Source: Burkholderiaceae bacterium (GTDB lineage: Bacteria > Pseudomonadota > Gammaproteobacteria > Burkholderiales > Burkholderiaceae_C). Taken from it: a stretch of DNA of 41,039 nucleotides. Position 1 is the stretch's first letter, and each line of letters opens with the position of its first letter. The notes beneath the pieces were generated by a model. The model saw only the letters and a list, made by a program, of their open reading frames with translations. It ran no database searches and was not told the DNA's origin. Below are positions 3,511 through 37,244 of the stretch, piece by piece. The stretch covers positions 1-41,039 of the forward strand of contig SCRR01000058.1 of assembly GCA_004322085.1 (NCBI GenBank), written 5' to 3'. The position numbers and the translations under genes were made by a program.

Positions 3511-5250
3511 CTAAGAATTCTGACGCTCCGCCTCCTGCAGCGTGCGCCACATCACCTTGCCGCTGCCGCTCTTGGGCAGCGCATCGACGAACTGCACGAT
3601 GCGCGGCATCTTGTACACGGCCATGTGTTCGCGGCACCAGTCCATGAGTTCCTGCCCGGTCACCTTGCCTTTGTAGGATTCCCGTAGCACCACCACGGCC
3701 TTGACGGTCTCGCCGCGGTAGCTGTCTTTGGCCGAGATGATGCAGGCTTCCTGGATGCCCGGGTGGCGAAACATCAGCGCCTCGACCTCGGCCGGCCAAA
3801 CCTTGAAACCCGAGGCATTGATCATGCGCTTGAGCCGGTCCGTCAGGAAAAAATAGCCGTCCTCGTCCACCCGCCCCAGATCGCCCGAGCGGAAAAACTT
3901 CTTGCCATCGAACTCGATGAAGGCCTCGGCGGTCGCGTCCGGGCGCTTCCAGTAGCCCGCGAACACCTCGGGGCCACGGATGATGATTTCGCCCTGCTCG
4001 CCCTGCGCCACTTCCTGCAGCGTGTCGGGATCGATCACGCGCGCATCGGTACTCATGAACGGGATGCCCAGGCACTGCTGCTTGGGGTTGTCGGGCGGAT
4101 TGCTGTGCGAGGGCGCGGCGGTCTCGGTCAGCCCGTAGCCCTCCGCATAGCGCAGCCCGAACTGGTCCAGCAGACGCTGCGCGACCGCCTGCGGCATCGC
4201 TGCACCGCCGCCGCCAATGGCGACAAGGCTGGACAGGTCGTAGCGCTCGAAGTTCGGGCTGGCCAGCAGGTCGATCACCATGGTCGGAATGTTGGTCCAG
4301 TGCGTGACGCGCCACGCGGAAATGAGGCGCCCGGCCAAGTCGCGGTCCCAGCGCGGCATCACCACCATGGTGGCCGCCGCGTAGATCGCCGTGTGCATCT
4401 GGCTCACCATGCCGGTGATGTGGAACATCGGCACCACCGCGAGCGTGACGTTTTCGGGCGTGCCATTGCCCCACAGACAGCTCGCAACGGTGTTGTGCAT
4501 GATGCTGGCGTGCGTGTGCATGCAGCCCTTGGGCAAACCGGTGGTACCGCTGGTGTAGGGCAGGATCGCGAGGTCCGCGGGTCCGACCGAATGCACGGGC
4601 GGCTCGCCCGGGGTGGCCAGCGCATCGTCCCAGTCGATGACCTGGCCACCAGCCAGAGTCGGCGGCGCGTGGCGCGTCGTCAGCCACGGCACCCAAGCCG
4701 CGGGCGGCGCGTTCTCACCCTGCACCCGAGCGTCAAAAGCGTCGGTGAAGTGCGTCACGATCAGGTGCGACAGGCGCTCGGATCCCGGCAGTGCATCGCT
4801 CGCTTGCGCCAGCTCGCCGGCCAGATCGGCCGTGGTGATGGCGACCTTGGCGTCCGGGTCGTTGATGTAGTGCTTGAGCTCTTCGGCGCGGTTCATCGGG
4901 TTCACCGGCACCACCACGGCGTTGGCCCGCAGGATCGCGAAATGGGCCATCACGAGCTGCGGGCAATTCTGCATGCACAACATGACCCGATCACCCTTTT
5001 TGACCCCCAGCCCATGCAGGCAGGCCGCCAGGCGCTCCGCCTTCTGTAGCATCTCGGCATAACTGAAGGTGCGGCCAAAGAACACGAGCGCAGCCTTGTC
5101 GGGATAGCGCAGCGCGCTCACCACGAGGTTTTGCCAAAGGGAATTGGACGGTGGCGTGAGCCGGTAAGGCAGGCGCCTGGGCCAGAAGCGGTAATGCGCG
5201 GGTACTTTGGCAGCAGCCTGCTCAGGCTGCAAGGGCGTCACGGTGATCAT
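3511..5250 (-). CDS. AMP-dependent acyl-CoA synthetase/ligase
   Basis: AMP-binding motif YTSGTTGLPKGCMHTH, GYGLTETAAP, FRSGDLGRVDEDGYFFLTDRLKRMINASGFKVWPAEVE, C-terminal PKSGSGKVMWR. Confidence 0.93.
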   Translation of the reverse strand: MITVTPLQPEQAAAKVPAHYRFWPRRLPYRLTPPSNSLWQNLVVSALRYPDKAALVFFGRTFSYAEMLQKAERLAACLHGLGVKKGDRVMLCMQNCPQLVMAHFAILRANAVVVPVNPMNRAEELKHYINDPDAKVAITTADLAGELAQASDALPGSERLSHLIVTHFTDAFDARVQGENAPPAAWVPWLTTRHAPPTLAGGQVIDWDDALATPGEPPVHSVGPADLAILPYTSGTTGLPKGCMHTHASIMHNTVASCLWGNGTPENVTLAVVPMFHITGMVSQMHTAIYAAATMVVMPRWDRDLAGRLISAWRVTHWTNIPTMVIDLLASPNFERYDLSSLVAIGGGGAAMPQAVAQRLLDQFGLRYAEGYGLTETAAPSHSNPPDNPKQQCLGIPFMSTDARVIDPDTLQEVAQGEQGEIIIRGPEVFAGYWKRPDATAEAFIEFDGKKFFRSGDLGRVDEDGYFFLTDRLKRMINASGFKVWPAEVEALMFRHPGIQEACIISAKDSYRGETVKAVVVLRESYKGKVTGQELMDWCREHMAVYKMPRIVQFVDALPKSGSGKVMWRTLQEAERQNS

Positions 5251-5399
5251 ACAAAAGTTTCCTCTCGTCAGGGTCTGGTCAAATGCCACACCGAACAATA
5301 GAGTACCCCCATTTCGCAGCAAGCCTTCCAGTGTCACGCGCGGGACCCGGGTCCCAACCCGGTCGCCGATCGCGCGCCGGCGTAGATAATCAAAGCGCC

Positions 5400-6434
5400 A
5401 TGACACGTTCCACTCCCCAAGCCACGCCAGCACTGCCGCGCCAGCGTTCCCCCGGCGGACTGACCCAGGTGGAGGGCATCGAGGTCGGCCACTTTACCGA
5501 CGCGCGCCGCCCGACCGGTTGCACGGTGATCGTCGCTCGCGCGGGCGCGGTGGCTGGTGTCGACGTGCGCGGCGCGGCACCTGGAACACGCGAGACCGAT
5601 CTGCTGGCGCCCGGCAATCTGGTGGAACAGGTACACGCCATCGTTCTGGCCGGCGGCAGCGCCTGGGGGCTGGACAGCGCATCCGGTGCAATGCGCTGGC
5701 TGGAGGAACAGGGAATTGGTCTCGATGTCGGCTTCGGCCTCGTGCCGATCGTGCCTGCTGCCGTGCTGTTCGACCTGCCGGTGGGCGATGCGCGCATCCG
5801 GCCCGACGCGCAAGCCGGCTACCAGGCTTGCGCGGCCGCCTCGCGCCAACGCCCGGCCGAGGGCAATGTGGGCGCCGGCGCCGGCGCCGTGGTGGGCAAG
5901 GCGTTCGGGTTGCACCGCGCGATGAAGGGCGGCATCGGAACCGCATCGGTCACTCTACAGGGCGTGACGGTGGGCGCGATCATCGCCTGCAATGCGTTGG
6001 GCGACGTGATCGATCCCGCCACGGGCCGCGTGCTCGCCGGTGCACGCACGGCCAACGGGCGCGCACTGCTCAATAGCCGGCGCGCCATTTTGCGCGGCGA
6101 GACGTTGCATCCCGTGCTCGCGGGCACGAATACGACGATCGGCGTGATCGCCACGGACGCCGTGGTCAGCAAGACCCAGGCACAAAAACTGGCACAGCTG
6201 GCGCATGACGGCCTGGCACGCAGCATCAACCCGGTGCACAGCATGTCCGACGGCGACACCCTGTTTGCACTGGGCACGGGTCAGTCCGGCAAGACGCTGG
6301 GCATGCTGGCGCTGGGCACCATGGCGGCCGAGGTCACGGCCAGGGCAGTGCTGCGGGCCGTGCAGGCGGCGCGCTCGCTGGACATCGGTGATCTCCACCT
6401 TCCCTGCGCAGCCGACCTGGCCACGCCGCTTTGA
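5400..6434 (+). CDS. P1 family (DmpA-like/S58) peptidase
   Basis: GLTQVEGIEVGHFTDARRPTGCTVIVA, LVEQVHAIVLAGGSAWGLDSASG, NVGAGAGAVVGKAFG. Confidence 0.88.
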   Translation: MTRSTPQATPALPRQRSPGGLTQVEGIEVGHFTDARRPTGCTVIVARAGAVAGVDVRGAAPGTRETDLLAPGNLVEQVHAIVLAGGSAWGLDSASGAMRWLEEQGIGLDVGFGLVPIVPAAVLFDLPVGDARIRPDAQAGYQACAAASRQRPAEGNVGAGAGAVVGKAFGLHRAMKGGIGTASVTLQGVTVGAIIACNALGDVIDPATGRVLAGARTANGRALLNSRRAILRGETLHPVLAGTNTTIGVIATDAVVSKTQAQKLAQLAHDGLARSINPVHSMSDGDTLFALGTGQSGKTLGMLALGTMAAEVTARAVLRAVQAARSLDIGDLHLPCAADLATPL

Positions 6435-6438
6435 CGCC

Positions 6439-7764
6439 ATGCCCAAACGGCTCAAGCTCCTGCTGCTGTCGATCCACGACCTGTCCATCTCGATCGGGCC
6501 GCTGCTGCTGATCCTGATCGGCGTGCTGGCGGCAGCCTACTGGTGGCTGGACCCGCAGCCCCCCAAGAAAGTGACGCTGGCGACCGGGCCGACCGGGAGC
6601 GCCTATGCCACCTTCGGCACGCGCTACGCCAAGGCACTCGCGGTCAATCACATCCACGTCGTGCTCAAACCCACCGACGGCTCGTCCGACAACCTGCAGC
6701 TGCTGCGCAGCGGCGAGGCCGACGTCGCGTTCGTGCGCGGGGGCAGCGCCGACCCGGTCGCCGACGAGGCGGCTGGTCTGACTTCGCTGGGCAGCCTGTT
6801 CTACGAGCCGCTGTGGATCTTCTACCGCGGCGACGTGGCACGCCGCATCGACCGCAAGAGCGGCGTGCTCGCCTCGCTCACGCAACTCAAGGGACTGCGC
6901 GTCAACGTCGACAAGCCCGGCAGTGGCGTCCCGGCCATCATGGACAAGTTGTTCGCGGCGAATCACCTGGACGCGCGGTCGATGCGGCTCTCGTACTTCG
7001 AGCCGGCCCCTGCCATGCAGGCGCTGCTGGCCGGCACGCTGGACGCCATCGTGCTCGCGTCAGCGCCGCAATCACCGCTGGTGCAAAAGCTGCTGCGCGC
7101 ACCCGGTATCGGGCTTATGGACTTTCCCCAGAGCGACGCTTATTCGAGGCGCTTCGCATTTCTGTCGGCCGTCACGTTGCCGCGCGGCGTGGTGGATCTC
7201 GCGCGCGATACGCCTCCCCATGATGTCGAACTGCTGGCCGCCACCACCTCGCTGCTGTCGCGCGAACAAACCCACCCGGCCCTGCGTCAGCTGTTTGCGC
7301 AAGCCGCCTTGAAACTGCATGGCGGTGCCGGCTGGTTTCACCGGGTGGGCGATTTTCCGAACACCAAAACCAGCGAACTGCCGGTCAGCCCCGAAGGCGA
7401 ACAGGCCATCAACGGCACACCGCCCTTCTATCAGCGCTATCTTCCGTTCTGGGCCAGCAACCTGGTCGAGCGCATGTGGCTGGTGTTTGGCGGTCTGCTG
7501 GTGCTGATGCTGCCGCTCAGTCGCCTGGTGCCGCCGCTCTATCAGTTTCGCGTGCGCCGGCGCGTGTTCCGCTGGTACGCGCGGCTGCGCGATATCGAGG
7601 CCAGGATCGATGCCGAACCCGCCAGGCGCGACGCCATGCTCGAAGACCTCGACCACCTTGACCGGGTGGTCAACCACGTGGCGGTTCCGCTGTCGTACGC
7701 CAACGAGCTGTACGCGCTGCGCAATCACATCGATCTGGTGCGCCAGAAGCTGCTCAAAGCGTGA
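6439..7764 (+). CDS. TAXI family (TRAP-associated) solute-binding protein with an N-terminal membrane anchor and a C-terminal TM/coiled-coil extension
   Basis: VTLATGPTGSAYATFGTRYAKAL, LLRSGEADVAFVRGG, LKGLRVNVDKPGSGVPAIM; C-terminal TM segment WLVFGGLLVLMLPLSRLV. Confidence 0.83.
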   Translation: MPKRLKLLLLSIHDLSISIGPLLLILIGVLAAAYWWLDPQPPKKVTLATGPTGSAYATFGTRYAKALAVNHIHVVLKPTDGSSDNLQLLRSGEADVAFVRGGSADPVADEAAGLTSLGSLFYEPLWIFYRGDVARRIDRKSGVLASLTQLKGLRVNVDKPGSGVPAIMDKLFAANHLDARSMRLSYFEPAPAMQALLAGTLDAIVLASAPQSPLVQKLLRAPGIGLMDFPQSDAYSRRFAFLSAVTLPRGVVDLARDTPPHDVELLAATTSLLSREQTHPALRQLFAQAALKLHGGAGWFHRVGDFPNTKTSELPVSPEGEQAINGTPPFYQRYLPFWASNLVERMWLVFGGLLVLMLPLSRLVPPLYQFRVRRRVFRWYARLRDIEARIDAEPARRDAMLEDLDHLDRVVNHVAVPLSYANELYALRNHIDLVRQKLLKA

Positions 7765-10027
7765 CGTCCACGCTGTTGCGCATGGCCGCCTGTGCCACCG
7801 CATCGAGCGCACTGTCCAGCACCGCCTGATCCGAGAACAGACGCAGGGCGCCGTCCTGCACCAACTGGTCGAGCGAATGCCGCGTCATCGAGTGGGTGCT
7901 GCCGTTGACGCCGGTAAACATGAACAGGTTGCCACGCCCACTGGCCCAGGTCAGCTGCATGCGCGTCCAGCGTCCGTGCACCTGCAGCTCCACCCAGGCG
8001 CCGAGCGGAATGGGACACGCCCCGGTCGAGGCGATCGGTGCTGCCGCAGCATCTTGCGATGCATCGGGCGCACCCGCCAGAGGCTGGGTCGGATCAAGAC
8101 GCGGCCGGGACAGCAGCGAGTCCGTGGCTTCGATAAAGCCCGATTGCTGCGCCTCGGACGGAGCCAGCCACAACCGAGCTTCGTCTCCGTCGCGAAACAT
8201 TGCATCCAGCCTGGCGCGTGTGAGCGCTTTGGCGTCGGGCGCAGCCGAAGCGTTGGCTGCAGGTTTGAGTGCCTGCTGATGCAGCGCCATCAACTGGTTG
8301 AAGAACAGGTCCGCCGCCGCCGCGGGGTACTCGATACGCGCAAGGCCCTCACGCAACTTGCCGAGCAGCGGCGCAATCATGCCCGTCAGCCGCGCCACAT
8401 CCGCCTTTTGCAGACCGGGCTGCGTGCTCCACAGCAGATCGCGTGCGACACCCAGGCAACCCGCGGGATCCGCCGCGCCGGGCGGCTGCGCCAGCCTTGC
8501 CTGTGCCACCACCTGTGCCCAGGGGCCATACAGAAAGGTGACGACTGGCGCTGGCGCCTGCGCGGCTTCGGGCCACGCGCGCATCTCTTTTGCAACGCTT
8601 CGTGCCACTTCGTTTCGCTGCTCCGCCCGGGCCAGAACCTGAGCCGCCCTTTTTTGCTGTTCACGCTCACGCTCTTCCTGGCGATCCCAGACCGGCTCAA
8701 GCGACTTGAGGGCAAGCTCGAATGGCTCGGCGCTGTCCATCGATCCCTGTGACAGGGCGTCAACCGCCTGGCGCAGCGGCCGCAGGAAGGCCTCGAACTC
8801 CGGAGCATCAGCGGCCCGATAGGCCAAACTGCGATGCGTCATCTGCTCGATCAGCCGGCGTGCAGGGTGCTGCTTGTGGCTGAAAAAGCGGGGATCGATC
8901 AGGGCCAGCCGCAACAAGGCGGGTTCGATATCGCGCATCGCCTGGCGCACCGGCGCCAGCAGGCGCGTGTCGCGCGTGATGTTGTCGACCATCAGGGCGA
9001 CCACTTCGAGCCCCAGTGCCTGACCCAGCCCGCGGGCCTGCCGGCGCAACTGCTCGCGCAGTGGCAGCGCGGCCTGTGCTGCCAGCGCCGCAGCCGGTGC
9101 GGGGTCACTCGCCCGTTTTGCCAGACGCTGCATCACCTGGTCCACCTGCTTCATCTCCTGCAGCGCTTCAAATGCAGCCGGCACGGTGTTTGCAAAGGCG
9201 GGCGGTGGTGACTCCTTGCCACCAGATTCAAATTCCCGCGCGAATCGGGCCGCGAACGAGTCTGGCACCGGCTGGGCGTCCAGCTCTCCCGCCAGCAGAC
9301 GGTGCAGTTGGCCCAGCGTCAGCCCGGCCGCATCACGGCCCGCCGCGGCGGGCCGGACGAGGTCAGGCGACGATGTGACGGTATACGCCGCGTGCGTCAC
9401 GCCTCGGGACCGCAATGAATCGCTCAACGACGCATACACCGCGCCCAACTCCCCGCCCAGCGTTGCACCCATGTGCTGCATCCAGTTCAACCAGATCCGC
9501 GGCGGCACGTCGGTCTGCGCCAGCAGCTTGCGCAGCGTGCGAACATACAGTTCCGGGCGTACCGGATTGCGATGGGCCTGAACCGTCCTCAAGCCTTGCG
9601 CCGCGCAAATCAGTGCGTTGAGATCCGTCAGCTGGTGGTCGCTTGCAAGCAGCACCACCTGCAGTGCGCGCGCGACCTCGACACTCTCGTCGACCTGGGT
9701 CTCGTTCATCAGCTCGAGTTCATCGAAGCTCACGGACACCAGCCTGGATTTGACCTGTTGCCCTGACACCTCTTCGGCAAAGGCAGCCTGCAACGCGCCC
9801 GGATACGCGTCACGCAGACGCGCTTCGTGTTTGTCCAGCAGACGCAGCGATTGAGCCGGCGAATCACGCTCATTCGATGGAGCGCTGCGCACCTGTTGCT
9901 GCAGCGCCAGCCGCAGCTTGCCGGTCATCATCTCCATCAGGGATCCACCGGCGTGCGCAGCTTCACGCAGGCAGTTGTCGAACAAGGCCGCGCGGCGGGC
10001 CGCTGGTTGCGCGTCGGGAGTGCTCAT
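7754..10027 (-). CDS. DUF1631 family protein
   Basis: 757-aa ORF; LFDNCLREAAHAGGSLMEMMTGKLRLALQ and PIPLGAWVELQVHGRWTRMQLTWASGRGNLFMFTGVNG. Confidence 0.8.
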   Translation of the reverse strand: MSTPDAQPAARRAALFDNCLREAAHAGGSLMEMMTGKLRLALQQQVRSAPSNERDSPAQSLRLLDKHEARLRDAYPGALQAAFAEEVSGQQVKSRLVSVSFDELELMNETQVDESVEVARALQVVLLASDHQLTDLNALICAAQGLRTVQAHRNPVRPELYVRTLRKLLAQTDVPPRIWLNWMQHMGATLGGELGAVYASLSDSLRSRGVTHAAYTVTSSPDLVRPAAAGRDAAGLTLGQLHRLLAGELDAQPVPDSFAARFAREFESGGKESPPPAFANTVPAAFEALQEMKQVDQVMQRLAKRASDPAPAAALAAQAALPLREQLRRQARGLGQALGLEVVALMVDNITRDTRLLAPVRQAMRDIEPALLRLALIDPRFFSHKQHPARRLIEQMTHRSLAYRAADAPEFEAFLRPLRQAVDALSQGSMDSAEPFELALKSLEPVWDRQEEREREQQKRAAQVLARAEQRNEVARSVAKEMRAWPEAAQAPAPVVTFLYGPWAQVVAQARLAQPPGAADPAGCLGVARDLLWSTQPGLQKADVARLTGMIAPLLGKLREGLARIEYPAAAADLFFNQLMALHQQALKPAANASAAPDAKALTRARLDAMFRDGDEARLWLAPSEAQQSGFIEATDSLLSRPRLDPTQPLAGAPDASQDAAAAPIASTGACPIPLGAWVELQVHGRWTRMQLTWASGRGNLFMFTGVNGSTHSMTRHSLDQLVQDGALRLFSDQAVLDSALDAVAQAAMRNSVDVTL

Positions 10028-30875: not shown

Positions 30876-31145
30876 TCATTTGGGATGTTTCGGCCGGAGA
30901 ACGGTCAGGCGCTCCAATTTCGCAGCCCTGTTCCTCAACTCTTCATCGCTCATCTCGGCAAGCACACGCAACCCCACACGAACCACCTCACTCTGGTTCA
31001 TCAACATGCCCTGTGTTGCGCAACGAACGCGCAGTGCTTCAATGAGCTGTGCGTCGGCTTCCTGCATCGAAAAAGCGCGCCGGACCACCGGGCTAGTCTG
31101 GCCTGTCGAGGTCTGTCGGCGGCCCTTGCTCACCTTGCTGGACAT
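30876..31145 (-). CDS. Small putative ribbon-helix-helix DNA-binding protein
   Basis: 89 aa; FSMQEADAQLIEALRVRCATQGMLMNQSEVVRVGLRVLAEMSDEELRNRAAKLERL is a plausible RHH pattern (strand, helix, NQSEVVRVGLRVL helix). Confidence 0.6.
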   Translation of the reverse strand: MSSKVSKGRRQTSTGQTSPVVRRAFSMQEADAQLIEALRVRCATQGMLMNQSEVVRVGLRVLAEMSDEELRNRAAKLERLTVLRPKHPK

Positions 31146-31168: not shown

Positions 31169-31181
31169 ACGATAATACCGT
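31169..31181. promoter_or_regulatory. Candidate operator/-10 overlap between the RHH gene and GHKL protein 1
   Basis: Imperfect palindrome ACGATAATACCGT containing GATAAT, in the divergent intergenic region. Confidence 0.3.
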
Positions 31182-31250
31182 GTGCCCAGTATGTGCGGAT
31201 GGGCAGCCGAACAAGATTGCAGCACGCCTGAGCCGCCTCAGAACCGGAGA

Positions 31251-33356
31251 ATGCCTATGGCCATACCTTCTCGCCGAGCAGTAACGGCCGTCGGCAGTAA
31301 GCCAAGTAGGTCTGCTCCTGCTGCGAAGAAGGCAGCGGCCAAGAACTCTCCGTACCAGCTCCGCATTTCGCGTCTGACGGTCGACAAACTCGGCGTCAAG
31401 CTGTACGACAAGGCCAGTGCGGTAGTGGCTGAGCTCATCGCCAACGGCTACGACGCTGACGCCGAAACCGTCACGGTGCGACTTCCACTCAACCTGCAAC
31501 TGGCTTCACAGGCCGGCGGCAAGCTGAAGGATCTCGGCTACGTCATCGAGGTTGAGGACGATGGCCACGGTATGACGCCCGAGGAGGCCATCGGCTTCTA
31601 TCTGCGGGTAGGTACCGACCGCAGAACGCGCAAGGGCGAGGACGGTAGTAAGTCACGGAAGAAGAAGCGGCCCGTCATGGGTCGCAAAGGCATCGGAAAG
31701 CTGGCGCCCTTTGGGATTTGCCGCTGCATCGAGGTGTGGTCCGCCGGCGGTCCCAAAACGAAAGACGGCTACGCCATCACGCACTTCTTCATGGACTTCG
31801 ACAAGATCGTTACCGACGACGACGAGGCCGTGCCGCTCGAAGTCGGCAGCGAAGATCGTGGCTGGAGCAAGAAGTCGGGAACGCGCATCAGGTTGACGTC
31901 GTTCCTAGCCAAGCGCGTTCCTGATCAGGAGACATTCTTGCGCCAGTTGGCAGTCCGGTTTACGTTCGCCAAGCCGGACTTCAAGATCATGATCGTCGAC
32001 ACGGCCACCAACGGGGCAAAGCCGATAAAGGTCAATCCGCTAGACATACCATTGCTCCCCGGTTCGAAGATCGACTTGGCCAGCCGCCCCGTCATCGCTG
32101 ACAACGGCTCCACGCTTCCCGTGTCGGGCTGGCTCGGTATGGCCAAGGAGGCGTACAAGAACGAAGAGATGATGGGCGTACGCATCTACGCCCGCGGCAA
32201 GATCGCGGGCGTGACGCGGGACTTCAACCAGCCCGCCGGGTTCACCGGCGAGTTCGCGATGCGTTCATACTTGGTGGGCCAGGTTGAGGCGGAGTGGTTG
32301 GATCTCGACAACGGTGACGACCTCGTACGAACCGACCGCCAGGACATCCTCTGGTCGTCAGACTATGGCGAGTTGCTGCGACGCTGGGGAGCTGAGCTCA
32401 TTAAGGAGATCGCCCGCATCTCGCGTGAGCCACGCCGCGTGCGCGTGCGCGACGAGTTTCTGCGCAAATCTGGCATCGAGGACAGAGCGCGCCAGCGGTT
32501 CGGCGATAAGCAAGTGGCTCGCGTCGCCATCGACTTGGCCAAGAAGTTTGGCGGCTTTGCCGCCGAGGACGAGCTGAGCGACGACGTTTACGTCGAAGAC
32601 CTTTCTCAGATCATCTTGTCGGTTGCACCGCACCAAGCACTGATGGAGGCTTTCCACGAATTCACCAATCAGGTGACCAAAGGCGAGGCCTCGATCGACC
32701 AGATGCTGGACATCTTCAGCAAGGCGCAGATCGCGGAACTGGCCTCGTACGCACAGATCGCGGCCCAACGCGTCCGGGTGATCAAGGACCTCGAGCAAAT
32801 CATCGACGTGTCGATGGACGAGAGCCAGTTTCAAGCACTGATTGCGCAGGCGCCCTGGCTTATCGAGCCATCTTGGACCGTGATCACGAAGAATCAGAGT
32901 TTGAAGAACTTCAAGCACGCGTTCGAGAAGTTCTGGAAACGCACCCATGGGACCGATGTCGTCCTTGCGATTGACCACGAAGGGAAACGCCCGGACTTTA
33001 CCTTGGTTAGCATCGACGGCCTGTTGCACATCATCGAAATCAAGAAGGCAGGTCATGCCTTTGACGACACTGACTTTGATCGGCTCATCAACTACGTCGA
33101 TGCGTTTGAACGATTCTTCAAAGAGAACGAAAAGACCGTGGCAGAGTTTTACAGGGAGTGGCGTATTGACGTCGTGGCGGATGGAGAGAAGCTGAAGAAG
33201 AGTCCAAATCAACGCGCATACGCCGGCTTGGTCAAAGATGGGCGCGTTAGACGCATGTCCTGGCTTGATTTCTTGAGCGGGGCAAAGAAGGTCCACGAGC
33301 AGTTCCTGGACGTGCATGATCTCGGCGTCGAAAAGCGCCAGGGGAAGAAGACATGA
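31251..33356 (+). CDS. GHKL (HATPase_c/MORC-like) ATPase with a C-terminal PD-(D/E)XK/DUF4263-like nuclease domain (protein 1)
   Basis: N box VVAELIANGYDADAETV, G1 IEVEDDGHGM, G2 MGRKGIGKLAPFGI; C-terminus FQALIAQAPWLIEPSW...KRPDFTLVSIDGLLHIIEIKKAG. The ORF opens at 31182, but GGAGA precedes ATGs at 31251 and 31257. Confidence 0.82.
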   Translation: MPMAIPSRRAVTAVGSKPSRSAPAAKKAAAKNSPYQLRISRLTVDKLGVKLYDKASAVVAELIANGYDADAETVTVRLPLNLQLASQAGGKLKDLGYVIEVEDDGHGMTPEEAIGFYLRVGTDRRTRKGEDGSKSRKKKRPVMGRKGIGKLAPFGICRCIEVWSAGGPKTKDGYAITHFFMDFDKIVTDDDEAVPLEVGSEDRGWSKKSGTRIRLTSFLAKRVPDQETFLRQLAVRFTFAKPDFKIMIVDTATNGAKPIKVNPLDIPLLPGSKIDLASRPVIADNGSTLPVSGWLGMAKEAYKNEEMMGVRIYARGKIAGVTRDFNQPAGFTGEFAMRSYLVGQVEAEWLDLDNGDDLVRTDRQDILWSSDYGELLRRWGAELIKEIARISREPRRVRVRDEFLRKSGIEDRARQRFGDKQVARVAIDLAKKFGGFAAEDELSDDVYVEDLSQIILSVAPHQALMEAFHEFTNQVTKGEASIDQMLDIFSKAQIAELASYAQIAAQRVRVIKDLEQIIDVSMDESQFQALIAQAPWLIEPSWTVITKNQSLKNFKHAFEKFWKRTHGTDVVLAIDHEGKRPDFTLVSIDGLLHIIEIKKAGHAFDDTDFDRLINYVDAFERFFKENEKTVAEFYREWRIDVVADGEKLKKSPNQRAYAGLVKDGRVRRMSWLDFLSGAKKVHEQFLDVHDLGVEKRQGKKT

Positions 33357-34786
33357 GCAAGCTGCGCGCGGTCAGCCTGTTTTCCAACTGCGGCGCCGGC
33401 GACGTAGGCTACCGCGCAGCCGGCTTCCGCTTCGACGTGATGGCGGAACTTGACCCGCGTCGCCTCGACGTTTGTCTGCTCAATCACCCTGGAGCCGAAG
33501 GCGTCCCCGGTGACTTGCGCAAGACGTGGCAGACCGTGATCAAAAAATACCGTGCGCGCGCAGGACAGGCGCGCCCGGCCCTGCTCTGCGCTTGCCCACC
33601 GTGCCAAGGAATGAGTTCTGCGAGATCGGGTAAGGGTAGCCACGATGACGCCGAGGCAGGTTCAAAGGATGAGCGAAACCTGCTGGTTACGGTGATCGCC
33701 AACGTCGCGTTGAAGCTGATGCCTTCCCTCATCGTTGTCGAGAACGTCCCGGCGTTCTTCACTCGCAAGGTGCATCACCCCAAAGACAAGAAACCGGTCT
33801 CCGCCGCGAACTACCTCATCACCTCGCTGGCTGACCACTATGTTGCGTTTCCGTTGGTCGCGGACCTCTGCGACTTCGGCGTGCCGCAGTCGCGCAACCG
33901 CGCGTTCCTGACTTTCGTGCGCAGGGACCTTCCGGGACTCAAAGAGCTGCTGCACATTGGTAGGACGCCGTTTCCGCGAGCTACGCATGCACCCGACGTT
34001 GGCAATGCAACACCGGTGTCACTAGCGGACGCGCTGGCGGAATTCGCGCTCCCCGATCTGGACGCGGCTTCGCCCGAAACTGCCCGAGCGGATGAGTACG
34101 CCGGCTTCCACTCCGTGCCCGTGTGGGACGAACGCACTTACGCCATGGTGGCGGCAATTCCGGCCGGCACGGGTCGCAGCGCATGGGACAATGACGTCTG
34201 CCATCACTGCGGACCGGTTAAGGTGTTGCCCGACACGGTCACTTGTCCGAAGTGCTCGGAGCCGCTTCTTCGTCCCATCGTGCGGGAGGACGATGGCAGC
34301 TATCGACTGATCAAGGGGTTCAAGAGCAGCTATCGCAGGATGTATGCCGACCGCCCTGCCGCCACAGTCACCACCGCCAGCGGACACATTGGCAGCGACT
34401 ACACGATCCATCCGACGCAGAACCGTTTGCTCAGCCCGTTGGAGTGCTCCCTCCTTCAAACCTTCCCGAGCGATTTCAAGTGGGGCGACGCTGTCAAGAA
34501 ACTTGGCCATACCAACGTACGCGAAATGATCGGCGAGGCCGTTCCGCCAGCGTTCACCAAGCTGCATGGGGAGGTGTTACACGGCATCTTGAAGCGCGAG
34601 TGGGCCCGCGCACCCATGGCTTCAAGTGACGAGCGGATCGCCAAGGGATGGACGAAGCTCGCCACGGCATCCAAGAAGGACGGCCGCAAGGACCCTCGCG
34701 ACTACTTTGACTATGCGAAGCCAGCCGCCCGTGCCGCGCCGCCGAGTAAGCGCGTTGGCAGTACGTCGGCGCCCGCGCGGGACTGA
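33353..34786 (+). CDS. DNA (cytosine-5-)-methyltransferase with a zinc-ribbon-like insertion
   Basis: SLFSNCGAGDVGYRAAGF (I), PPCQGMS (IV), VVENVPAFF (VI), VPQSRNRAF (VIII), IGEAVPPAF (X); insert CHHCGPVKVLPDTVTCPKC. ATGA overlap with GHKL protein 1. Confidence 0.93.
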   Translation: MSKLRAVSLFSNCGAGDVGYRAAGFRFDVMAELDPRRLDVCLLNHPGAEGVPGDLRKTWQTVIKKYRARAGQARPALLCACPPCQGMSSARSGKGSHDDAEAGSKDERNLLVTVIANVALKLMPSLIVVENVPAFFTRKVHHPKDKKPVSAANYLITSLADHYVAFPLVADLCDFGVPQSRNRAFLTFVRRDLPGLKELLHIGRTPFPRATHAPDVGNATPVSLADALAEFALPDLDAASPETARADEYAGFHSVPVWDERTYAMVAAIPAGTGRSAWDNDVCHHCGPVKVLPDTVTCPKCSEPLLRPIVREDDGSYRLIKGFKSSYRRMYADRPAATVTTASGHIGSDYTIHPTQNRLLSPLECSLLQTFPSDFKWGDAVKKLGHTNVREMIGEAVPPAFTKLHGEVLHGILKREWARAPMASSDERIAKGWTKLATASKKDGRKDPRDYFDYAKPAARAAPPSKRVGSTSAPARD

Positions 34787-34793
34787 GGTTCGA

Positions 34794-35249
34794 TCACCGC
34801 GGTTCGAGGAACGCCCGTAGCCGTGCTTCCAGGCGAGGCACGTCCCGGACTTCGCATTCCCAAACGACGAGAACCTCCCAGCCCAACGCGCCGAGTGCGT
34901 CCAGGTTCCACTGATCTCGTCGGCGATTGCCTTCGATCTTCGCCGCCCAGGTACTGGCGTTGTTGACGGGGCGCGTCGCACGTTTGCAGTCTTCGTGGCC
35001 ATGCCAGAAGCAGCCGTGGACGAGCACGATCTTGCGATGGCGCGGCAATACGACATCGGGCGTACCGGGCAAATCTTTCCGATGCAGCCGGAATCGATAG
35101 CCCATGGTATGCAGGATGCGTCGAACGCGCATCTCCGGCACCGTGTCACGCCCTTTCACTGCCAGCATGCGTCGCCGGGTCTCCGGAGTCACCTTCGCGT
35201 ACGCCGGCACCGACGCGCCGGGGTTGTCAGGCATCGAAGGTTCACGCAT
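34794..35249 (-). CDS. vsr: Very short patch repair endonuclease (Vsr family)
   Basis: RRRMLAVKGRDTVPEMRVRRILHTMGYRFRLHRKDLPGTPDVVLPRHRKIVLVHGCFWHGHEDCKRATRPVNNASTWAAKIEGNRRRD. Confidence 0.95.
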   Translation of the reverse strand: MREPSMPDNPGASVPAYAKVTPETRRRMLAVKGRDTVPEMRVRRILHTMGYRFRLHRKDLPGTPDVVLPRHRKIVLVHGCFWHGHEDCKRATRPVNNASTWAAKIEGNRRRDQWNLDALGALGWEVLVVWECEVRDVPRLEARLRAFLEPR

Positions 35250-35724
35250 AGACGAACTCGGCGCGAGCTACCGCAGGCTCCTGCACGCGAACGCCCAGGC
35301 GCACAAAGACGCCATGTCGATAGCCGAGCTGCTGGCAGTAGCCACGCAGCTTTTCGAAGTCACGATCGTCCGACTCGGGGTTGTTCGACTTCTTGAGCTC
35401 GAAGACGATGTGGTTGTCGGTCGTTCCTCTCTTGTGGACGATCACGTCGGGAAACACGCGACTGCCGTGTTCTCCGTCATCACCGGAGCCAAAGGCAATC
35501 TCCTTCGGATCGTGGCCGTCGCGGTTGTATTCGCAATCAACGTCCCAACCGGGAAACGCTTGTTCGACGTAGATCGCCAACCGATGCGTGACGGTTCGCT
35601 CGTTCACGTCCGACCACAGCAAGTAAGCGTCGCGCTCGAGCAAGGTTTGCACCGCGTGAACGACCGCCTCGGCCAGAGCTTGATCACCCTGGCAACTCGC
35701 CTTCAACGAATCGACCCCAGTCAC
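35242..35724 (-). CDS. Small PD-(D/E)XK-like nuclease (hypothetical protein)
   Basis: 160 aa; NERTVTHRLAIYVEQAFPGWDVDCEYNR...RVFPDVIVHKRGTTDNHIVFELKKS fits E...PD...ExK. 8-nt overlap with vsr and 4-nt overlap with abiEii. Confidence 0.65.
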   Translation of the reverse strand: MTGVDSLKASCQGDQALAEAVVHAVQTLLERDAYLLWSDVNERTVTHRLAIYVEQAFPGWDVDCEYNRDGHDPKEIAFGSGDDGEHGSRVFPDVIVHKRGTTDNHIVFELKKSNNPESDDRDFEKLRGYCQQLGYRHGVFVRLGVRVQEPAVARAEFVYA

Positions 35725-36623
35725 GTCGGACCGCCCTTCGAGAGATTGCCTGCGGACAGTTCGCTGGCGCGACGCGCGTGAGGTAGCAGAAATTCGGCGA
35801 GGGCCGACACGACGCCGCCAAGGCCCAAGACTTCCATTCCCAAGTCACGCACGAAGGCTTGCCATTGCCGCTGCTTGGCAGCGTCGTTCGCAAACGTTGC
35901 GCTCAGTGCTTCGGGCGCCTCGGTGGGCAGCGCCGTGCCGCGGCGCTCGAAAGTGGCAGCAACGGCGCGCGCCAGGCGATCATCGTTGAAATCGTACGTC
36001 CGGCTGAGCACCCACACGTCGTAGAAGTCCTTCATTCGGCTGTTCGCAAGTCCCAAAGCAACCATCGCTTGGAACTTCTCCGCGATTACGGTTTCGCGTG
36101 CGTATGCACGAAGCTTCGGCTGGGGCAAGTCGAGAAGAACCGGCAACTCCACTTCTTCGAGTCCTGGCTCGATGGCATCCCCAAAGCCGATGTCGATCAC
36201 TACCGTGATGCGAGCACCGGAAAGCCGCGCAGTGGTGCGAAGCCGCAAGCCGCCGTAGTCCAGCTCTTCCCTGATCAACTCGACGCGCAAACCCTCAACG
36301 TCGAATTCGATACCGTCGTTCAGCACGATGGCGCATATCTCGCGGAAGGTCGCGAGCATCGGTTCGGGTGCCGGGTCGCCGTAGCCCAGCAGATCCACGT
36401 CGCGTGTCGGGCGGTGTGGATCTTCGAACCACGTCGTCATTAGCATCGCCCCTTTCAATACGAAGCGGTCACGATGCGGCGAGATGCTGAGCCTGTGCAA
36501 TAGTCGTTCGATGGCGTAGCGCGTCAAAAGAAGATCGAGCGCCTGGCCCTTCTGCTTGGCGAGATTGAGCAGTCGCGCCCTCACCGAGGCACCGACGTCC
36601 CGCGACTTCTTGGTATCAGCCAT
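35721..36623 (-). CDS. abiEii: AbiEii/AbiGii-family nucleotidyltransferase toxin
   Basis: RDRFVLKGAMLMTTWFEDPHRPTRDVDLLGYG nucleotidyltransferase motif; ETVIAEKFQAMVALGLANSRMKDFYDVW. Confidence 0.9.
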   Translation of the reverse strand: MADTKKSRDVGASVRARLLNLAKQKGQALDLLLTRYAIERLLHRLSISPHRDRFVLKGAMLMTTWFEDPHRPTRDVDLLGYGDPAPEPMLATFREICAIVLNDGIEFDVEGLRVELIREELDYGGLRLRTTARLSGARITVVIDIGFGDAIEPGLEEVELPVLLDLPQPKLRAYARETVIAEKFQAMVALGLANSRMKDFYDVWVLSRTYDFNDDRLARAVAATFERRGTALPTEAPEALSATFANDAAKQRQWQAFVRDLGMEVLGLGGVVSALAEFLLPHARRASELSAGNLSKGGPT

Positions 36624-37239
36624 GCGACGTCAGCGCCACGAGGTACGGCTCCATGGCTTTCCAGACCTTAGCCTTAGCCGCCTGACTGGAGATTTCCGAA
36701 GGCGTCACCTTCTTCTGCCTCAGGCTTTCGCGCAGACCTTCGAGAGCAACGTTGATGCCAACGGTCTGGCGGTAGCGGAACAGATCTGCGACGGTCCGAG
36801 CAATGCCGAACACGGGAACGGCGACGCCATCGACGAGGTGCCATTCCACGTCTTCTTGCAGACGCACATCGTCAAAGCGCGCAAAGCGCACTGGTGGATA
36901 GGTAAACTTAGGGTGCCAGTCCTTCGTGCCGATGGCCATCCAGATTTTGGCGGGAATCTGATCCGTAAGGCCATGGAACGCGAGGGCTGACGTGAGACAG
37001 ATGACTCCTTTTGGAACGAGCTTCGCTGCCTCTGCGAGAGAGTGATTCACGTCGAGAGGCGCATCGGGCAATTGGTACAGACCGCGCGCCAGCCGGACGA
37101 TCAACCCGTCACGCTCAAGCCGTGACACCGTGGCCGCCGTGGCGCCCGATGCGATCAATTCGCTCAAACGCGCCATCCCCCTAGCGCGCAGGTGCGCCAT
37201 GACGATGTCGCGGTGGCTGAGAGGCTGGGAGGCAGGCAT
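36616..37239 (-). CDS. abiEi: AbiEi-family antitoxin with an N-terminal winged HTH
   Basis: GMARLSELIASGATAATVSRLERDGLIVRLARGLYQLPDAPLDVNHSLAEAAKLVPKGVICLTSALAFHGLTDQIP; 8-nt overlap with abiEii. The track's 37242 start is TTG; ATG is at 37239. Confidence 0.9.
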   Translation of the reverse strand: MPASQPLSHRDIVMAHLRARGMARLSELIASGATAATVSRLERDGLIVRLARGLYQLPDAPLDVNHSLAEAAKLVPKGVICLTSALAFHGLTDQIPAKIWMAIGTKDWHPKFTYPPVRFARFDDVRLQEDVEWHLVDGVAVPVFGIARTVADLFRYRQTVGINVALEGLRESLRQKKVTPSEISSQAAKAKVWKAMEPYLVALTSHG

Positions 37240-37244
37240 CAATG

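Follow-up and report, generated by a model that had tools for sequence, protein, structure and literature searches.

Gene organization of the locus

The DNA analysed (hereafter the window) is a 41,039-nt stretch of contig SCRR01000058.1 from a Burkholderiaceae bacterium. On its forward strand lies P1 (31251..33356; ATG start, TGA stop), which encodes a 701-aa protein with a GHKL-S5 ATPase, a helical stalk and a PD-(D/E)XK nuclease, the putative restriction subunit of a restriction-modification (R-M) module. The true start may be two codons in, at ATG 31257, which is likelier than 31251 because the relatives in L028 and L029 begin at the equivalent position. The end of P1 overlaps by 4 bp (ATGA) a gene on the same strand for a C5-cytosine DNA methyltransferase (MTase; 33353..34786) of the class termed type A below. 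The other genes of the region are on the reverse strand. A Vsr-family mismatch endonuclease gene (34794..35249) is convergent with the MTase gene and is followed by PDL3 (35242..35724), whose small PD-(D/E)XK-like product contains PDVIV...FELKK and matched PADLOC PD-Lambda-3_A (E=1.2e-43). Beyond these lie genes for an AbiEii toxin-type nucleotidyltransferase (35721..36623) and an AbiEi antitoxin (36616..37242), and P2 (37308..39512), which encodes a second GHKL plus PD-(D/E)XK protein of 734 aa with an intact PDFVFL...VFELKG. The AbiEii stop and the PDL3 start overlap by 4 bp. In the window, L029 and L030 alike, PDL3 (160 aa) has a fixed place between the Vsr gene and P2.

The gene order P1-MTase-Vsr-PDL3-P2 was found without the AbiE pair in Brachymonas (L029) and Hydrogenophaga (L030), and DNA alignment to these loci skips ~35.70-37.39 kb of the window. 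The AbiE pair is therefore regarded as an insertion, and its genes were rejected as part of the module. Outside the module, the alignment revealed no similarity of the DNA to that of L029 or L030, indicating a mobile module that is transferred as a whole. The G+C content of the module region (0.57-0.63) is slightly below that of most of the window. The window was found to contain neither a tRNA gene nor flanking direct repeats of the kind that mark an integration site. In L028/L039 (Achromobacter sp. Marseille-Q4962), the P1 homologue (84% identity) is truncated by the contig end. This homologue and a small regulator gene are close to a tyrosine integrase gene and a sul2-like gene (names from reading translations), a setting which suggests carriage of the module on mobile DNA that also bears resistance genes. 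Beside the module in L030, positions 3893-7566 carry what appears to be another GHKL ATPase gene with its own C5 MTase and a Vsr-like gene; this may be a MORC-type R-M system.

Divergent from P1 is a gene for a small ribbon-helix-helix-like protein of 89 aa (30876..31145, reverse strand), a candidate controller. Its counterparts are 71% identical in L029 and 66% in L028/L039, and its Pfam match is weak (ParD, E=0.1). The conserved GATAATACCGTGTGC (31171..31185), a candidate promoter/operator between the two genes, is also found in L029 and L028; the conserved GATAATACCGTRTGC and GTRTGC-type repeats ahead of P1 are likewise common to the window, L029 and L028. The 89-aa protein gene and this conserved DNA look like a controller and its operator.

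ATPase and nuclease halves of P1

The initial annotation had read P1 as an apparent fusion of a GHKL ATPase with a PD-(D/E)XK nuclease of DUF4263 (Shedu) flavour. Every string that it quoted was found in P1, and the ORF coordinates agreed. The three ATP-binding boxes are present in the order N, G1, G2 (31431..31715, forward strand): N-box ELIANGYDAD (aa 61-70, 31431-31460), G1 box EDDGHGM (aa 102-108, 31554-31574) and G2 box GRKGIGKLAPFG (aa 144-155, 31680-31715). This part of the protein matched Pfam HATPase_c_3 with E=3.7e-17. We aligned P1 with 16 homologues (n=17; 40-87% identity to P1) ranging from Comamonadaceae to Cenarchaeum, Methanophagales archaea and viral contigs. E61, N65, D68, D103, G105, G107, G144, G147 and G149 were invariant, and no variation was seen at R315 or K317 of the S5-domain R315-G-K317 (32193..32201, forward strand), in which K317 is a candidate lysine finger. 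Purifying selection on P1 is strong (dN 0.085 and dN/dS ~0.03 between the window and L029, with dS saturated).

In the AlphaFold model of P1 (mean pLDDT 76, pTM 0.53), a GHKL head and an S5-like domain are joined through a helical stalk (364-521) to an alpha/beta nuclease domain; the S5 fold follows the GHKL domain, with strands and helices at aa 190-350. Foldseek matched the N-terminal half to MORC2, MutL, GyrB and TRAP1 with modest TM-scores, the matches to the first three covering both the GHKL and S5 domains.

The C-terminal PD-(D/E)XK domain (aa 522-696, 32814..33338, forward strand) has E524, D582, E596 and K598 as predicted catalytic residues and contains the strings FQALIAQAPWLIEPSW (527-542), RPDFTL (580-585) and HIIEIKK (593-599). 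A PD...ExK string is by itself weak evidence; in P1 it is more than chance, because R580, D582, E596, K598, R611 and Y615 are invariant across the 17 sequences, with E524 nearly so. A chance match was rejected, since the motif residues are invariant among homologues that include archaeal and viral ones. Loss of the acidic and lysine residues among homologues had been named beforehand as evidence against a nuclease; the 17 sequences retained the motif, and AlphaFold modelled the proposed domain as alpha/beta with pLDDT ~82-90 at aa 590-670. The fusion of ATPase and nuclease is confirmed: the three ATP-binding boxes, the S5 lysine and E524-D582-E596xK598 are all retained in bacterial, archaeal and viral homologues. 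A sequence search of solved structures with P1 gave GHKL chaperone and MutL matches only, none credible for the nuclease end, and in viral models Foldseek matched the C-terminus to nucleases only weakly.

The Shedu part of the description held as remote homology and failed as plain family membership. Profile-profile comparison of the P1-clade C-terminal domain with six Shedu (SduA) proteins gave E=2e-4 across 149 columns, in which the active sites coincide and the DxxL...IEVKK motif is in register; controls (Vsr, MTase, reversed Shedu) gave E values of 0.06-0.45. Pfam SduA_C scored 15.4 bits on P1, below its gathering score of 27. It matched 11 of the 17 clade members at E<=0.05, with all scores seen below 27 bits and the best score among the relatives tested being 24.8 bits. 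These findings indicate that the likeness of the P1 nuclease to Shedu is genuine but remote. Plain Shedu membership was rejected because SduA_C is below cut-off and P1 is MTase-linked.

P1 among restriction enzymes

We next consider the named families to which P1 is closest, BbrUII/HgiDII and paraMORC3; the initial annotation, correct on the fusion, had missed both the overlap with the C5 MTase gene and the R-M module. NF050001 (NCBIfam, BbrUII/HgiDII) matched P1 with 255.1 bits (E 1.4e-75) and P2 with 204.1 bits (E 3.8e-60), both below the equivalog cut-off of 550 bits. Members of the sister clade that have MTases exceed this cut-off (e.g. 766 bits for L044 and 791 bits for L046), and P1 shares a homologous nuclease domain with them (profile-profile E 1.6e-15). 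PADLOC REase_II matched 17/17 members of the P1 clade. P1 and P2 resemble BbrUII/HgiDII over most of the protein; P1 also has the homologous nuclease domain and a C5 MTase neighbour, the gene at 33353-34786. P1 differs in that the order is MTase-REase in BbrUII/HgiDII and P1-MTase here, the MTase type is another, and the P1 clade is separate. Identity of P1 with a characterised enzyme is not established, because its NF050001 score is 255 against the required 550 bits.

Most of the related GHKL proteins adjoin an MTase. The P1 and MTase trees broadly agree for core loci, and the two genes are co-inherited from Pseudomonadota to Acidimicrobiaceae and Rhodothermaceae, with Vsr in most loci. Genetic linkage and co-inheritance mark P1 and the MTase as a putative type II R-M pair. 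HgiDII is a sequence-specific (GTCGAC) endonuclease. GTCGAC, the recognition site of M.HgiDII (PMC5867850), had an observed/expected ratio of 0.71 in 430 kb of the bacterium's own genome and ranked 4 of 60 palindromes, i.e., it was not outstandingly avoided; palindrome avoidance in these 430 kb singled out no 6-bp target.

In 2008, Iyer, Abhiman and Aravind introduced under the name paraMORC3 a GHKL-S5-RE-fold fusion whose gene neighbours include Dcm and Vsr (PMC2292703). P1 corresponds to it in the N-terminal GHKL domain with intact motifs, the S5-fold domain, the C-terminal RE-fold nuclease with E-D-ExK, and linkage to cytosine methylase and Vsr genes. This placement is based on architecture and motifs; the direct match is a phage protein annotated ParaMORC3. 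That protein, from Escherichia phage PhiR44_1 (PV340563), forms with Dcm a convergent GHKL-nuclease/C5 MTase pair, as do P2 and the MTase here; however, the phage has only one GHKL protein, which is 24-27% identical to P1/P2. In PhiR44_1, a P2-like phage (L234), the ParaMORC3-Dcm pair (5010-8058) is situated between portal/terminase and replication genes. The available part of the 2008 paper proposed manipulation of DNA superstructure and did not describe two such proteins per MTase. The relation to HgiDII/BbrUII and the division into P1 and P2 clades are added here to the paraMORC3 picture. By its domains, residues and gene linkage, P1 is very probably a paraMORC3-type restriction endonuclease whose clade is sister to the BbrUII/HgiDII type II enzymes.

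Alternatively, P1 might resemble VcSduA in being an immune nuclease of Shedu type I-D, in which the GHKL domain senses infection and gates the DUF4263 nuclease and the MTase is incidental. VcSduA, a stand-alone GHKL-DUF4263 protein reported in 2025 to defend V. cholerae, resembles P1 in combining a GHKL ATPase and a DUF4263-like PD-(D/E)XK nuclease in a single chain of identical architecture, and it requires both E27 (ATPase) and K557 (nuclease) (PMC12137116). Together with the remote homology of the nuclease domains (E 2e-4; SduA_C in 11/17 members), this speaks for the Shedu reading. However, VcSduA was reported to work alone (PMC12137116), whereas P1 is the operon partner of a C5 MTase; the overlapping MTase is conserved with P1 across loci, in contrast to the stand-alone occurrence characteristic of Shedu. 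The 4-bp overlap, the wide co-inheritance, Vsr in most loci and the far better match to NF050001 (1.4e-75) than to SduA_C, which stays below cut-off, make an immune nuclease of this kind very unlikely. ATP gating, as predicted by the initial annotation, would fit both the conserved ATPase residues of P1 and the published VcSduA mutants (PMC12137116).

P2 and the proposed sharing of one methylase

P2 has the architecture of P1, is 27% identical to it and converges on its MTase from the opposite strand. An AlphaFold model of P2 built with 6 sequences was poor (pLDDT 50) and was set aside. P2 is intact and constrained (dN/dS ~0.03 across three genomes); the host must therefore be protected from it somehow. 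The window MTase was the only C5 MTase found by a PF00145 search, which covers the C5 class only, of the draft genome (90% complete, 456 contigs), from which another MTase could be missing. Given this single C5 MTase, P2 most likely cuts at sites that the window MTase protects, working either in parallel with P1 or together with it in a heteromer.

The arrangement P1-MTase-(Vsr)-second GHKL was also found in L032, L033 (Pseudomonas), L034 (Lysobacter) and L035 (Rhodospirillales), so that the composite recurs in Comamonadaceae, Pseudomonas, Lysobacter and Rhodospirillales. A second GHKL-nuclease lies beside the MTase in 6 of the 7 fetched loci that have P1 of >=69% identity and intact downstream sequence. 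Loci without a second GHKL-nuclease are L031 (Vandammella), L036 (a prophage-like contig of Duodenibacillus) and L037. The P2 proteins of the window, L029 and L030 group with those of viral L119/L120 (SH-aLRT 99), the second GHKL proteins of L032/L034 with L122-type proteins (93, inside a clade with 100), and that of L035 with L109 (100). The second-enzyme slot was thus filled at least three times, because the second GHKL proteins fall in three lineages of the tree. A Cenarchaeum MAG (L040, 9923-14479) carries two P1-clade GHKL-nuclease genes in tandem, with no MTase gene directly beside them.

Free-standing relatives of P2, on viral contigs and the P. aeruginosa plasmid pY89, carry their own C5 MTase. 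P1 and P2 classes each occur with an MTase and without the other (L031, L036, L119-L130), indicating that the second copy is dispensable elsewhere. The MTases are of two types. Type A, which is long and has CxxC...CxxC in the target-recognition region, comprises the window MTase and the partners of P1-core and L122-type proteins. The shorter type B comprises the partners of L119, L120, L121 and L127 and of the P1-outer viral proteins L108, L109 and L111. Both GHKL classes therefore pair with both MTase types. P2 of the window belongs to a lineage paired with type B, yet it is placed beside a type A MTase. Its protection by the latter is not self-evident, because the MTases of L119/L120 are type B and have a different target-recognition region.

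One explanation for P2 is that it is the remnant of a second R-M system which lost its own MTase, and is silent or tolerated by chance. The free-standing L119/L120 proteins, 63-67% identical to P2, do have their own type B MTase, and the draft genome yielded no C5 MTase besides that of the window. However, the intact P2 gene with its low dN/dS across three genomes and the origin of the composite on at least three occasions make a remnant improbable.

A further explanation is that sequence specificity resides in the MTase and not in the GHKL enzyme, such that any GHKL-nuclease can be guided by the MTase. The pairing of both GHKL clades with both MTase types is consistent with this. No GHKL positions tracking MTase type were found among the few sequences compared, a search of low power, and the identity profile of P2 against L119/L120, which are type-B-paired, showed no local dip beyond that of L119 against L120. 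In view of the sequence specificity of HgiDII, the low power and the possibility that type A and B MTases are isospecific, we consider guidance by the MTase highly improbable.

GHKL ATPases dimerise via the head, and heterodimers are known for MutL and plant MORCs. P1 and P2 may accordingly form a heterodimer or heteromer with an active site from each, for which one MTase would suffice, as in MutLalpha or the type IIT enzyme BbvCI; AtMORC1/2/6 provide a plant example (PMC4865129). The presence of a second GHKL-nuclease, from three sources, with a single MTase in 6/7 close P1-core loci with intact downstream sequence is in favour of a heteromer. Against it, each class is also found alone with an MTase, and a co-evolved interface would hardly be expected where members of unrelated clades take the place of P2; we consider a heteromer rather unlikely. 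Type IIT heterodimers (BbvCI, PMC4081073) resemble the module in having two nuclease polypeptides per R-M locus, but lack the GHKL ATPase of P1/P2, for which action as one enzyme is a candidate. None of the terms GHKL, MutL and MORC appears in a 2014 review of type II enzymes (PMC4081073).

Taken as a whole, the locus is very probably best explained with P1 as the paraMORC3-class endonuclease of a mobile type II-like R-M module in which the MTase protects the host and P2 most likely acts under the same MTase. The sequences themselves show the domain architecture, the conservation of the active residues, the linkage of the genes and a composite that recurs and was assembled repeatedly; ATP gating, cleavage and its site, sequence specificity and shared protection are predictions. 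Binding of ATP would dimerise the GHKL-S5 heads, closing a MutL/MORC-like clamp on DNA. Clamp closure would license the C-terminal PD-(D/E)XK domains (E524, D582, E596xK598) to cut targets that lack 5-methylcytosine. The host would be protected by the overlapping, presumably co-transcribed C5 MTase, and Vsr probably mends T:G mismatches arising from deaminated 5mC. P2, which has the P1 architecture and comes from a different ancient clade, would either cut in parallel at the site that the MTase protects or act with P1 in a heteromer.

The GHKL-nuclease fusion itself is already known (PMC2292703; PMC12137116). For the composite of two cutters and one methylase, we found no description in the literature searched, which included part of PMC2292703. 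We tentatively propose, as a possibility rather than an expectation, that two MORC/MutL-like ATPase-nucleases from separate clades operate under a single cytosine MTase, with the second slot repeatedly refilled from systems that have another methylase type elsewhere. The choice of target would then fall to something other than the nuclease chain (the methylase or the ATP-gated heteromer), or unrelated methylases would converge on one site.

The analysis brings together, as related proteins, paraMORC3, the HgiDII/BbrUII restriction enzymes and the Shedu proteins of GHKL type. It makes directly testable the long-open question of the role of a MutL/MORC-type ATPase in a restriction enzyme. The module with two cutters and one methylase would be a natural system for locating sequence specificity and for studying hetero-dimerisation of GHKL nucleases, and it bears on how the MORC proteins of eukaryotes originated.
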